From positions 1 to 37,605 of the forward strand of contig JANYBN010000222.1 of NCBI GenBank assembly GCA_025360785.1: a stretch of DNA of 37,605 nucleotides, read 5' to 3'. This DNA comes from Geobacter sp. GTDB taxonomy: Bacteria > Desulfobacterota > Desulfuromonadia > Geobacterales > Pseudopelobacteraceae. A model generated the notes under the pieces. It was given only the letters and a program-made list of their open reading frames with translations. It made no database searches and was not told the origin of the DNA. Position numbers and translations under genes: made by a program. Below, piece after piece: positions 1 to 12,460 of the stretch. The stretch's first letter is position 1; every line of letters starts with the position of its first letter.

Positions 1-39
1 AGTTGGTTTGATAATCAAAGAGCTGCGCAGCAACCCGCC

Positions 40-90
40 TTAACGGTGGGAAGGGAGCGCTGTAAGTCTAAAGTCCAGATAACAATTCAT
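40..90 (-). CDS. 16-codon ORF behind the riboswitches, possible leader peptide
   Basis: On the minus strand an ATG at 90-88 follows a good AAAGGAG ribosome binding site by a few bases and is the first start downstream of the second GEMM aptamer. It reads MNCYLDFRLTALPSHR and stops at 42-40. It is too short to be the usual riboswitch target, so it may be a leader peptide, the broken 5' end of a real gene, or meaningless. The true target probably lies beyond position 1. Low confidence. Confidence 0.2.
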   Translation of the reverse strand: MNCYLDFRLTALPSHR

Positions 91-141: not shown

Positions 142-225
142 GATATTTCGGCGACCCGGCTGTCTTCAAGAGACCCTTGGGCTTTCCGTCCCCCCCTCGC
201 AGAGGGTTTAGTATTTTCGGATATC
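142..225 (-). promoter_or_regulatory. GEMM-I riboswitch aptamer, downstream copy of a tandem pair
   Basis: Read on the minus strand, it has the GEMM-I order: P1 (GATAT at 225-221 with ATATC at 146-142), the ACTAAAC strand, a P2 stem capped by a GCGA (GNRA) tetraloop at 200-197, the GGACGGAAAGCC junction, a P3 stem GGGTCT/AGAC, then AGCCGGGTCGCCGAA. The base aligned with Vc2 position G20, three before the AAAC, is A; in Geobacter this change marks 3',3'-cGAMP-preferring (GEMM-Ib) aptamers. It is closest to the ribosome binding site at about 97-103. No U-tract terminator follows within the window, so its output may be translational or beyond the edge. Alignment was by eye. Confidence 0.8.
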
Positions 226-306
226 ACTAGTCGTAACATTCTTAAATCATTGCATCCATTCAGCTAACCGCCACATCCTCCTTTCTTCTGTTGATCAACG
301 GAAAAC

Positions 307-355
307 AAAAAACCGGGAGCCATCCTGTCGACTAATCGATCATTCGGCATCCCGG
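307..355 (-). terminator. Riboswitch-controlled intrinsic terminator of the upstream aptamer
   Basis: On the minus strand the 3' part of the first aptamer, CCGGGATGCC (355-346), can pair with GGCTCCCGG (321-313), which is followed by six T (312-307). The stem has 9 pairs with one bulged T. Because the 5' arm is aptamer sequence, aptamer folding and terminator formation should exclude each other. Ligand binding would then allow readthrough, giving an ON switch (inference from pairing). Confidence 0.75.
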
Positions 356-420
356 CTGTCTCCATGAGACCCTAGGCTTTCCGCCCTACCCTTGCGGGTA
401 GTTTAGTATTATCGTGTATC
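337..420 (-). promoter_or_regulatory. GEMM-I riboswitch aptamer, upstream copy of a tandem pair
   Basis: This is the first-transcribed copy on the minus strand. It shows ACTAAACTACCC, a GCAA tetraloop at 395-392 closing a CTACCC/GGGTAG P2 stem, the GGCGGAAAGCC junction, a P3 stem GGGTCTC/GAGAC with a short loop, and AGCCGGGATGCCGAA. The position aligned with Vc2 G20 is A, as in the other copy, which supports cGAMP rather than c-di-GMP. It sits downstream of the deacetylase stop at 499 and points left. About 110 bases separate the two aptamers and contain the terminator of this one. Confidence 0.82.
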
Positions 421-2917: not shown

Positions 2918-3742
2918 TCAATAGACGATATTCCGCTTTGGCGCGGTCCCCGCCACTATCTGCGTGAATGTCTTGCCCTGATCGGAGTTTATCAGCAGGT
3001 AGCGAGGCAGCCTGTTCACACTGTCCGCTTGAGTTGCATGATGGGCAACTATCGTGAAGGTGGCGACGTAACCGGCTTCGGCGGCTTTCTTAAGCAGATG
3101 GTCGTCGAAAATACCGAACGGCCAGGCCAGCATATCGACCTTTCCTCCCAACTCCTTTTCGATCTTCGCCTTTGATTTTGTCAGCTGAGTCACCACCGAT
3201 TTTTCATACTCTTGCGGATTCATCTTTTTCATGTCTCTCTTGAAGTTCGGGTGCCAGTAGGTATGGCTCTGAAAATCGAACAGGCCGCCCTTCTTCAACT
3301 CCCGGATCTGGTCCCAGGTCATCGCGTACTTGGCGTTTGAAATGGCCGAAGGGTAGATAAAAACCGTTACCGGCACATTGTACTTCTTAGCGAGCGGCAT
3401 CATGTCCGTGTACACCGATTTATGTGCATCGTCCTCGACTATCACTACAGACTTAGCTGCCGGGGCAGGGCCCTTCTTCTGATACCAGTCAACCAGCTGC
3501 CGCAGAGGAATGACCTTATAACCGTTGTCTTTCAGATATTTGAGGTGCGATTCAAAAACAGGTGTGGTGATCGTCATGCCGTCAGCCACCGTCGGTCCGA
3601 AACGGTGGTAGAGCAGTATCGGAACCCTGACTTCCTGGCTCACAACAGGAAGGTTCTTCTTGATTTCGGTAGGGGCGGCATGTGACAGGGGGATGGTTAA
3701 CGAGAATAACAACAGCAACAGCAGCAGCAAACGGCACTTCAT
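2918..3742 (-). CDS. Polysaccharide deacetylase with signal sequence (PgaB-like NodB domain)
   Basis: The ATG at 3742 follows GGAGG by 10 bases; a TTG at 3748 would add two residues. A poly-Leu signal sequence (residues 1-22) leads into LYHRF near 45, the Asp motif VEDDAH (Asp104, Asp105), the metal-binding QSHTYWHP (His160, His164) and a WPFG motif, all typical of NodB-type glycan deacetylases. PgaB-like enzymes act on poly-N-acetylglucosamine, but no pga genes are adjacent, so the substrate is open. A possible promoter lies upstream on the minus strand (GTGCAA/ATATAA complements at 3835-3806, 18-bp spacer). Confidence 0.85.
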   Translation of the reverse strand: MKCRLLLLLLLLFSLTIPLSHAAPTEIKKNLPVVSQEVRVPILLYHRFGPTVADGMTITTPVFESHLKYLKDNGYKVIPLRQLVDWYQKKGPAPAAKSVVIVEDDAHKSVYTDMMPLAKKYNVPVTVFIYPSAISNAKYAMTWDQIRELKKGGLFDFQSHTYWHPNFKRDMKKMNPQEYEKSVVTQLTKSKAKIEKELGGKVDMLAWPFGIFDDHLLKKAAEAGYVATFTIVAHHATQADSVNRLPRYLLINSDQGKTFTQIVAGTAPKRNIVY

Positions 3743-3990
3743 AAACAAATGACCTCCGGAAGATGATATCGAAAGTTATCTTAGCAAAGATGCGGCCTGG
3801 AAGCGATATAAATTGAGTGCGATCTGCCTGTGCAACTGGTTTGAGACCTTGGCAGTTTTCATCATACAGACGCAACAAAGGCAGAGTCACCCCACGTTTT
3901 TCCATGCTGGCGTGTGTCCAAACGTCGGTATACAAGAAAATCAATCAAAAACACTTTTTCAGACCTTTCACAAAAAATTTCAGTTACCCC

Positions 3991-11037: not shown

Positions 11038-11514
11038 ATGCGCCTCTCGACTAAAAGCAGATACGGCCTGCGAGCTATGCTAGACATCGCCTACAACTGC
11101 GGCCCTGCACCTGCCCAGATTCAAGACATATCACGAAGGCAACAGATTTCTCCACGTTATCTGGAGCAGATTTTCCAGAACCTGAAACGTGCAGGTCTCC
11201 TGAAAAGCAAACGTGGACCGCAAGGCGGATATGCTCTGTCACGTAAACCGGAAGAAATTACGGTTCTTGATATACTTAATGCCACTGAGCAGGATGTTTT
11301 ACTGGTTGACTGCGACGGAGCAACGCCAAAGAAACGGCGCCGCAAGACAGAATGTCCTTTTGAAGGCAAATGCGTCACCCAGACCGTCTGGGCAGAAGCA
11401 AACGCACTGCTTGACACTCTATTTGGCGGTATGACCCTGCAAACCCTTTGTCAGAGAGCCCGCGACATGGGTATTGAAAACGAGGCGGACCATCGCGTCA
11501 TGTACCACATCTAA
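11038..11514 (+). CDS. Rrf2-family transcriptional regulator, probably iron-sulfur sensing
   Basis: The ATG at 11038 (CGGAG 8 bases upstream) gives 158 residues beginning MRLSTKSRYGLRAMLDIA, the usual Rrf2 start. The winged helix includes YLEQIFQNLKRAGLLKSKRG and the GPQGGYALSR wing. Cys92, Cys106 and Cys112 follow, in a basic stretch and CPFEGKC motif like the three cluster ligands of IscR-type proteins. It may therefore sense Fe-S status, redox or cysteine metabolism. No isc or cys genes are adjacent, so its targets are elsewhere. The PAS-GGDEF gene starts 28 bases after the stop and may share its transcript. Confidence 0.92.
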   Translation: MRLSTKSRYGLRAMLDIAYNCGPAPAQIQDISRRQQISPRYLEQIFQNLKRAGLLKSKRGPQGGYALSRKPEEITVLDILNATEQDVLLVDCDGATPKKRRRKTECPFEGKCVTQTVWAEANALLDTLFGGMTLQTLCQRARDMGIENEADHRVMYHI

Positions 11515-11542
11515 CCTTCCCTAAATTCAGAAAGGTGAAACC

Positions 11543-12460
11543 ATGCTGGATACAGTCGATTTTTACCGCGAAATTTTGGACAACCTGTACGATGGCATCT
11601 TTTTTGTGGACAAGGAAGGGTGCATCACCTACTGGAATAAAGGCGCTACCAGCCTGACCGGTTATAGCTCTGCAGACGTTCAAGGCAGAAATTACTGTGA
11701 TATTTTTCAGCCGCTGGACAAACATGGCAACAATCTTTGTGAAAACAATATCTGTCCGATACGGCGCGTATTCGACATAGCAACTCTCACTGAAATTGAG
11801 GCTTATATCTGCCACAAGGAAGGTCACCTGCTGCCGATATCTATCCGGATCGCCCCGGTACGGGAGGTTAGTGAGCAATATGTGGTTGCGGTTGAAATTC
11901 ACAGCAGCAATTCACCACGCTATGCAATGCGGCAGCGACTTGAAGAACTTCAGGAACTGGCGATGCATGATCTGTTGACCGGTATCGCCAACCGACGCTT
12001 TGTTGAAATCAATCTTGCGGCACGACTGGAAGAATTTAAACGGTATGGTTTTGACTTTTCAGTAATGTTCATTGATGCCGATCATTTCAAAACCATCAAC
12101 GATACACATGGACATACTGTAGGGGATCGCATCCTCAAAATGATCAGCGCAACCATTGCCAACAGCCTCCGTTCCTTTGACATCATCGGACGATGGGGGG
12201 GCGAGGAATTCGTCGTACTATTGGTAAACACCAAAAAAGACGATCTGTTCAAGCTGACTGACCGGTTGCGCAGATTGGTTGAAAGTTCGGCACTGACACT
12301 TGATAACGGAGAAACGCTGAAGGTAACGGTTTCGGTCGGAGCGACAGCCGCGCAAAAGGGGGATTCAGTAGGGTCTCTTATTGAACGTGCCGACAAGCTT
12401 ATGTTTGAAAGTAAACGCCGCGGCAGGAATATGGTTTCGGTTGAATTCAAAGAGGATTAG
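11543..12460 (+). CDS. PAS-GGDEF diguanylate cyclase
   Basis: The 305-residue cytoplasmic protein has an N-terminal PAS domain (about 5-122; DGIFFVDKEGCITYWNKGA) that probably senses a small signal, and a GGDEF domain (about 140-300). The active-site GGEEF is at 219-223, with an inhibitory RSFD site (210-213) five residues before it. The guanine-contacting Asp195 in GHTVGD is kept, so it should make c-di-GMP, not be a Hypr cGAMP synthase, in which this Asp is Ser or Thr. AAGGTG precedes the ATG. Its targets are unknown. Confidence 0.95.
   Translation: MLDTVDFYREILDNLYDGIFFVDKEGCITYWNKGATSLTGYSSADVQGRNYCDIFQPLDKHGNNLCENNICPIRRVFDIATLTEIEAYICHKEGHLLPISIRIAPVREVSEQYVVAVEIHSSNSPRYAMRQRLEELQELAMHDLLTGIANRRFVEINLAARLEEFKRYGFDFSVMFIDADHFKTINDTHGHTVGDRILKMISATIANSLRSFDIIGRWGGEEFVVLLVNTKKDDLFKLTDRLRRLVESSALTLDNGETLKVTVSVGATAAQKGDSVGSLIERADKLMFESKRRGRNMVSVEFKED

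Follow-up and report, generated by a model that had tools for sequence, protein, structure and literature searches.

The window, by which we mean the complete stretch of 37,605 nucleotides analysed here, comprises the whole of contig C83 from a Geobacter sp. genome (3.9 Mb, 229 contigs, 99.97% complete, 2.53% contamination), and thus the left edge of the window is a contig end. RNA annotation was performed using cmscan with Rfam gathering scores (35 bits for RF01051), and two RNAs in the window score above these: each is an RF01051 (GEMM-I) aptamer on the minus strand and each spans the full model from position 1 to 87 (Table 1). An earlier note, made from the letters of this DNA, had described two complete aptamers in series on this strand, which the covariance model reproduces with slightly narrower bounds; the GNRA-capped P2 (loops GCAA and GCGA) and the AGCCGGG..GCCGAA motif that terminates both aptamers were found as the note had it. 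Polysaccharide deacetylase genes lie at 499–1293 and 2918–3748 (minus strand), one of them directly upstream of the tandem leader; two GGDEF genes are present near 11960 and 15634, and 16225–37600 contains sensory genes: a PocR-PAS-HisKA kinase, Cache and CHASE4 histidine kinases and two Cache/HAMP chemoreceptors.

Table 1. Features of the tandem GEMM-I leader and its flanks, in window coordinates.
Feature	Position	Strand	Basis
Aptamer 1, GEMM-I, A at 407 (presumed Vc2-20 equivalent)	343–417	−	RF01051, 52.9 bits, E 1e-7
Aptamer 2, GEMM-I, A at 212	147–222	−	RF01051, 43.8 bits, E 1.7e-5
Aptamer 1 P1 5' strand UUGAU, partner AUCGA at 340–336	418–422	−	by eye
Aptamer 2 P1 5' strand GUGAUAU	221–227	−	by eye; used in folding test
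Aptamer 2 P1 3' strand AUAUCGC; alternative partner CGAUAU at 94–89	140–146	−	folding
Intrinsic terminator; 5' arm is the aptamer 1 3' strand, then six U (312–307)	307–357	−	folding and script
AGGAGG block between the two switches	277–282	−	sequence
Shine-Dalgarno AGGAG (100–96) and start AUG (90–88), inside predicted sequestering hairpin	88–100	−	folding
First four codons (MNCY) of cytochrome gene; remainder on contig C88 (L021:63–2141)	79–90	−	sequence match
End of repeated insertion element (related copy: DDE_5 transposase)	1–78		identical ends on C39, C38, C204, C73

Contig C88 starts with 74 bases identical to window 152–79 and continues in frame, giving an open reading frame of 692 residues. 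The encoded protein exhibits a lipobox-like N-terminus (VAAGC), seven CXXCH motifs and PT-rich linkers (by eye), and five stretches of it match Cytochrome_CBB3. PgcA is described as a lipoprotein cytochrome whose CXXCH motifs lie between PTx repeats; it is needed for Fe(III) oxide reduction and is driven by a cAMP-GMP-responsive GEMM riboswitch (PMC5732950). From its predicted protein, the gene under tandem control is probably a PgcA-like multiheme surface cytochrome, which makes the suspected tie to extracellular electron transfer genes a probable one; the earlier note had placed the gene left of the window; its first four codons lie inside, and the remainder is on C88. The next gene on C88 encodes a REC-PAS-PAS-GGDEF-EAL protein with the canonical aspartate. 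Compared against 39 genomes of the genus, the N-terminal 236 residues are closest to proteins of G019, G026, G031 and G006 (61–70% identity), and an aptamer-2-type leader with one Rfam aptamer precedes the gene in three of these four (G006, G019, G026); within the stretch examined for the G031 relative, there is no RF01051 aptamer. Overall, relatives of the cytochrome in named genomes amount to eight loci, five of which show RF01051 matches. An A-type GEMM-I aptamer with a terminator-like sequence also stands before a cytochrome relative in a MAG labelled Nitrospirae bacterium GWC2_57_9 (L130, 2598–2674), which may reflect lateral transfer or a mis-binned contig.

It could be argued that C88 is another locus that happens to share 74 bases, or an assembly error, and not the natural continuation of C83: the assembly is in 229 contigs with 2.53% contamination, and no single contig contains both aptamer 2 and the intact gene. 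We consider this very improbable, as the 74 bases are identical, are in frame and contain the same start codon, and as in the orthologues the gene follows this same leader immediately, both on a single contig. The left end of the window belongs to an insertion element. In all four contigs with identical ends (Table 1), CTGGAC marks the beginning of the repeat, and the sequence of window 1–78 is absent from C88; judged by this repetition, the segment represents the terminus of a mobile element, and neither leader nor gene. A related element in G033 encodes a 434-residue transposase (DDE_5, presumably associated with IS701), the last 18 residues of which match C38 and C39 and the first 27 of which match C34. 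The element sits after codon 4 of the cytochrome gene and leaves a frame of 16 codons, whilst an uninterrupted allele is found on C88 of the same assembly. C88 begins on the upstream side of the insertion site and reads across it, so that the sequenced material seems to contain both alleles, suggesting a mixed population in which the gene would be broken after codon 4 in the element-bearing allele and intact in the allele alongside. The element match on C83 covers 79 bases compared to 138–142 at the other four contigs, which may be due to lower coverage. No contig in the assembly joins aptamer 2 to the intact gene: only C88 carries the intact gene start, and hence the second junction is absent from the assembly.

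With respect to ligand specificity, position 11 of the RF01051 model, which we take to be the equivalent of Vc2 G20, is A and not G in both minus-strand matches of the covariance-model alignment, as the earlier note had proposed; given this position equation, both aptamers carry the A at the Vc2-20 position by which GEMM-Ib is recognised. In each case the A is followed by CU, where the consensus reads GC, and this CU can pair with GG. The genome contains 14 RF01051 matches, nine of which are of this A-CU type and four of which are clear G types; the match on C170 is also G, but degenerate. This degenerate GEMM-I (11445–11564) is located before a lipoprotein with an N-terminus that resembles that of the cytochrome. 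In a GEMM-Ib aptamer from G. metallireducens, the A20G exchange shifts specificity from cGAMP to c-di-GMP, and deletion of gacA lowers the transcripts behind GEMM-Ib (PMC6456294).

A survey of GGDEF domains gave 27 match rows in the genome, of which 25 were inspected together with C103:3653–3775, which falls inside one of the same stretches; the match C65:8687–9007 was left out of this inspection. At C145:63339–63809 the Hypr serine (GHMVGS) is combined with GGDEY, and the closest solved relative is 6d9m (205.3 bits, serine on serine; PleD is next with 107.7), a lysozyme fusion of a response-receiver GAF diguanylate cyclase that we take to be the GmGacA structure. The C145 open reading frame is probably a GacA-like Hypr GGDEF protein, and thereby a candidate cGAMP synthase, which agrees with the cGAMP-type signalling context presumed in the earlier note. 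The presence of such a protein makes cGAMP the likely ligand, and we conclude from the sequences of both aptamers that each probably binds 3',3'-cGAMP. At C51:9843–10133 a serine also occupies the Hypr place, here with GGDDF (by eye), a combination reported for GSU1937, the second synthase of G. sulfurreducens (PMC8835794). This C51 gene is located some 4 kb beyond the other A-type tandem of the genome (13790–14094, L022), which has a terminator behind each aptamer, on the same strand, and a feedback loop is conceivable. That one or both of the aptamers in the window sense c-di-GMP, or both ligands, and not cGAMP would be in keeping with the many canonical GGDEF proteins of this genome, with the OmcST switch of G. 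sulfurreducens, which responds to both cGAMP and c-di-GMP (PMC6456294), and with an A-type aptamer from Desulfobacca that gained cGAMP affinity whilst mostly keeping its c-di-GMP affinity, perhaps with a slight loss (PMC9481103). Since both of these aptamers bind both ligands, the A at position 20 is, on analysis of these cases, a predictor of cGAMP binding and not of exclusiveness. We nevertheless regard c-di-GMP sensing as improbable here, given the A20 with CU/GG in the lower P2, as in the nine A-CU matches, and the GacA-like protein.

The two aptamers differ in what follows them. The 3' strand of aptamer 1, AGCCGGGAUGCC, pairs with GGAUGGCUCCCGG, followed by six U, and the stretch 360–300 folds with −23.6 kcal/mol (z −3.3), a value reached by one of 200 shuffles. 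The pilM and pgcA switches are ON switches of this terminator design (PMC9262584, PMC6456294). Behind aptamer 2, on the other hand, no terminator was detected by eye or by script, with no U-run hairpin within 85 bases; the hairpin CCCGUAAUAACGGG was considered as a terminator and rejected, as no U-run stands behind it. Aptamer 2 is instead separated by 56 bases from the start codon. Its P1 is predicted to form between GUGAUAU and AUAUCGC, with AUAUCG having an alternative partner in CGAUAU that overlaps the AUG, and the neighbouring CUCUU (137–133) is predicted to pair with the Shine-Dalgarno sequence: the P1 helix and the start-codon helix are mutually exclusive. When P1 is forced in the uninterrupted leader, the AUG is more often unpaired (mean probability 0.94 compared to 0.49), and so is the Shine-Dalgarno sequence (0.56 compared to 0.28). 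In the element-bearing allele, removal of the P1 3' strand raises the mean probability of being unpaired from 0.29 to 0.43 for the region from Shine-Dalgarno to AUG, and shuffling of 27 bases including the P1 3' strand gave equal sequestration in 0.5% of 200 trials.

Comparison with the leaders of the three orthologues (G006, G019 and G026) gave a mixed result. Both UAUCGCC and AAAAGGAGACGAUAUG are invariant, whilst the linker between them varies in length and sequence, with a hairpin predicted in each; five bases of the six-base complement over the start codon are kept in all three. However, forcing P1 did not open the start in these leaders: the probability of being unpaired changed from 0.52 to 0.48 (Shine-Dalgarno) and from 0.64 to 0.44 (AUG) in G006, from 0.46 to 0.17 and from 0.38 to 0.37 in G019, and from 0.46 to 0.17 and from 0.57 to 0.36 in G026, with shuffle fractions of 0.11–0.125. 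Across 64 A-type aptamers, standard pairs are seen in 86–89% of sequences at each of the four P1 columns (GAUA/UAUC), with few two-sided changes; as unrelated column pairs score similarly in the same scan, this covariation is compatible with P1 but weak. On balance, the folding models incline us slightly towards a translational step at aptamer 2. A different explanation would be that aptamer 1 alone switches expression, with aptamer 2 a remnant or a weak modulator, consistent with the lower Rfam score of aptamer 2 (43.8 versus 52.9 bits) and with the folding of the whole stretch 225–85, the stability of which does not exceed that of shuffled sequence (z −0.66, 48 of 200 shuffles), a result that also counts against the translational step. 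That aptamer 2 is such a remnant or modulator seems quite unlikely, given that it is aptamer 2, and not aptamer 1, that is common to the three orthologues before the same gene; from this distribution, aptamer 1 was either gained here or lost there.

We also compared 32 A-type tandem loci, 31 from the genus and one from a Desulfuromonadales MAG (L131), using Rfam coordinates and terminators called by script. These loci were picked by likeness to the window among the matches listed, and 32 is not a genus-wide count: from 36 regions fetched 27 were used, to which five loci from elsewhere were added (the window, L022, L070, L071 and L131), and the regions left out were single-aptamer orthologues (L118–L120), regions from other genera (L041, L122, L123, L124, L126) and one region that is not an A-CU tandem (L125, G008). 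A terminator follows the first aptamer at all 32 loci examined, whilst the second aptamer has a terminator in 22 and none in nine, the remaining locus being a triplet; since the loci were chosen by likeness and several are orthologous, these counts are not frequencies. For the same reason, the presence of ACU in all 65 aptamers of the tandem loci is no independent test. In G010 (L094, 665–1031) there is a triple A-type tandem with a middle copy lacking a U-run or terminator. AGGAGG-like blocks occur downstream of the first terminator and ahead of the second aptamer at 22 of the 32 loci, many of them orthologous (19 AGGAGG, one GGGAGG and two GGGGG); the background of AGGAGG in the window is 0.146 per kb per strand. 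The block is perhaps a leftover ribosome site from a single-switch ancestor; for a leader-peptide ribosome site, a start codon at normal spacing is mostly absent in the copies inspected by eye.

The nine mixed loci, in which only the first aptamer has a terminator, comprise the window, four loci whose downstream genes encode related lipoproteins, with two to four CXXCH in the part examined (G003, G019, G026, G029), two loci before a 390-residue protein without CXXCH (G018, G007), and G033 and L131, where the PgcA-like proteins downstream have five and four CXXCH, respectively; PgcA-like cytochromes are thus found downstream of three of the nine. Sequestration of the start by the P1 strand was unsupported in five of six other mixed loci (A14_bin-0914, G007, G033, G003 and G026b), G003 and G026b showing the reverse change, and was weak in G018. 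As a general rule for mixed tandems, P1-strand start sequestration was therefore rejected. This result, together with the two terminators found in 22 of the 32 tandems and the GSU2885 tandem of G. sulfurreducens, which works at the transcript level (PMC6456294), lends some weight to a pseudo-cooperative tandem, in which both switches are transcriptional, the second acting via a Rho-dependent or unrecognised terminator, and the response to one ligand is steeper. We consider this unlikely for the window, albeit the most serious of the alternatives, since there is no U-run behind aptamer 2 and the P1 3' strand carries the partly conserved complement over the AUG.

Our preferred reading, to which we assign a probability of roughly 0.5, is that one PgcA-like surface cytochrome is under the control of a tandem GEMM-Ib pair, which acts at two levels in succession, both units most likely being ON switches for 3',3'-cGAMP. 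The platforms differ, with a terminator behind the first unit and, behind the second, none and a predicted pairing with the start codon; this leads to the prediction of a transcription-then-translation ON switch with one ligand. In the absence of ligand, the intrinsic terminator would take up the aptamer 1 3' strand and transcription would stop, whilst ligand binding would keep this strand within aptamer 1 and allow the polymerase to continue. In the longer transcript, aptamer 2 would then gate translation: without ligand, its AUAUCG would pair with CGAUAU over the AUG and the neighbouring stretch with the Shine-Dalgarno sequence, and with ligand bound P1 would close and leave the start freer. 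The ligand would probably be supplied by the GacA-like Hypr GGDEF protein encoded on C145. With an intrinsic terminator in the first unit and none in the second, the arrangement resembles a bi-mechanism tandem in its terminators, and classing it as a cGAMP tandem of this kind, in which one messenger is sensed twice per mRNA, at termination and then at translation start, both ON, is a tentative step that we hold with marginally less confidence than the reading as a whole. The interpretation of the earlier note thus stands for the tandem type, the A position and a probable link to extracellular electron transfer, but not for a two-input response: both aptamers share an identical A-CU signature and most likely bind one ligand, so that two-input logic is unsupported and was judged unlikely.

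In comparison to known systems, as far as the available portions of the cited papers describe them, the closest parallel is the tandem GEMM-Ib before the omcAHG (GSU2885) cytochrome operon of G. sulfurreducens, the transcript of which falls without gacA (PMC6456294): here too, two cGAMP-type GEMM-I aptamers in series precede outer-surface cytochrome genes, but control has been published at the transcript level, whereas the second copy in the window lacks a terminator. The pgcA (GSU1761) leader likewise combines a GEMM-Ib ON switch with a terminator, and the lipoprotein cytochrome encoded downstream also has CXXCH motifs and PT repeats (PMC5732950, PMC6456294), the proteins being likened by description; one aptamer and terminator are published in that case, in contrast to the second, terminator-less aptamer found here. 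The SAM-II/SAM-V bi-mechanism tandem reads the same ligand at termination and then at translation start (PMC9481103), but consists of SAM classes acting as OFF switches, whilst the units in the window are GEMM-I and predicted ON switches. In Vc2 from Vibrio cholerae, P1 of a GEMM-I aptamer governs a translational platform, although as a single c-di-GMP OFF switch (PMC9262584). In Bc3-5 from Bacillus thuringiensis, a single gene is likewise preceded by multiple complete GEMM-I units (PMC4759541, PMC9481103), but these are three in number, respond to c-di-GMP and belong to another host and gene. One census of tandem riboswitches lists c-di-GMP-I among the pseudo-cooperative systems, with 347 doublets and 12 triplets; its bi-mechanism rows are SAM pairs, SAM-II doublets of mixed platforms are mentioned, and the evaluation of platforms is stated not to be comprehensive (PMC9481103). 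According to the reasoning of a later survey, the first unit would be transcriptional and the second could act at either level (PMC12452182). Our literature searches, for which most subscription papers were beyond reach, found no report of a mixed-platform GEMM-I tandem. Thus, tandem GEMM-Ib switches before cytochromes are known, and what looks like the new element is the two-level version; we file the aptamers as GEMM-I, with cGAMP as the likely ligand, and give the arrangement the bi-mechanism label provisionally.

If correct, a transcription-then-translation pair responding to one signal would place an irreversible choice first and a reversible one second, which is distinct from the pseudo-cooperative design, and a ready comparison set exists in the 22 loci with two terminators and the nine mixed ones. 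In addition, the analysis identifies, in a little-studied genus, a surface cytochrome that is probably controlled by cGAMP; the second gate, if real, could allow the cell to silence existing messenger for such a costly protein on leaving a mineral.
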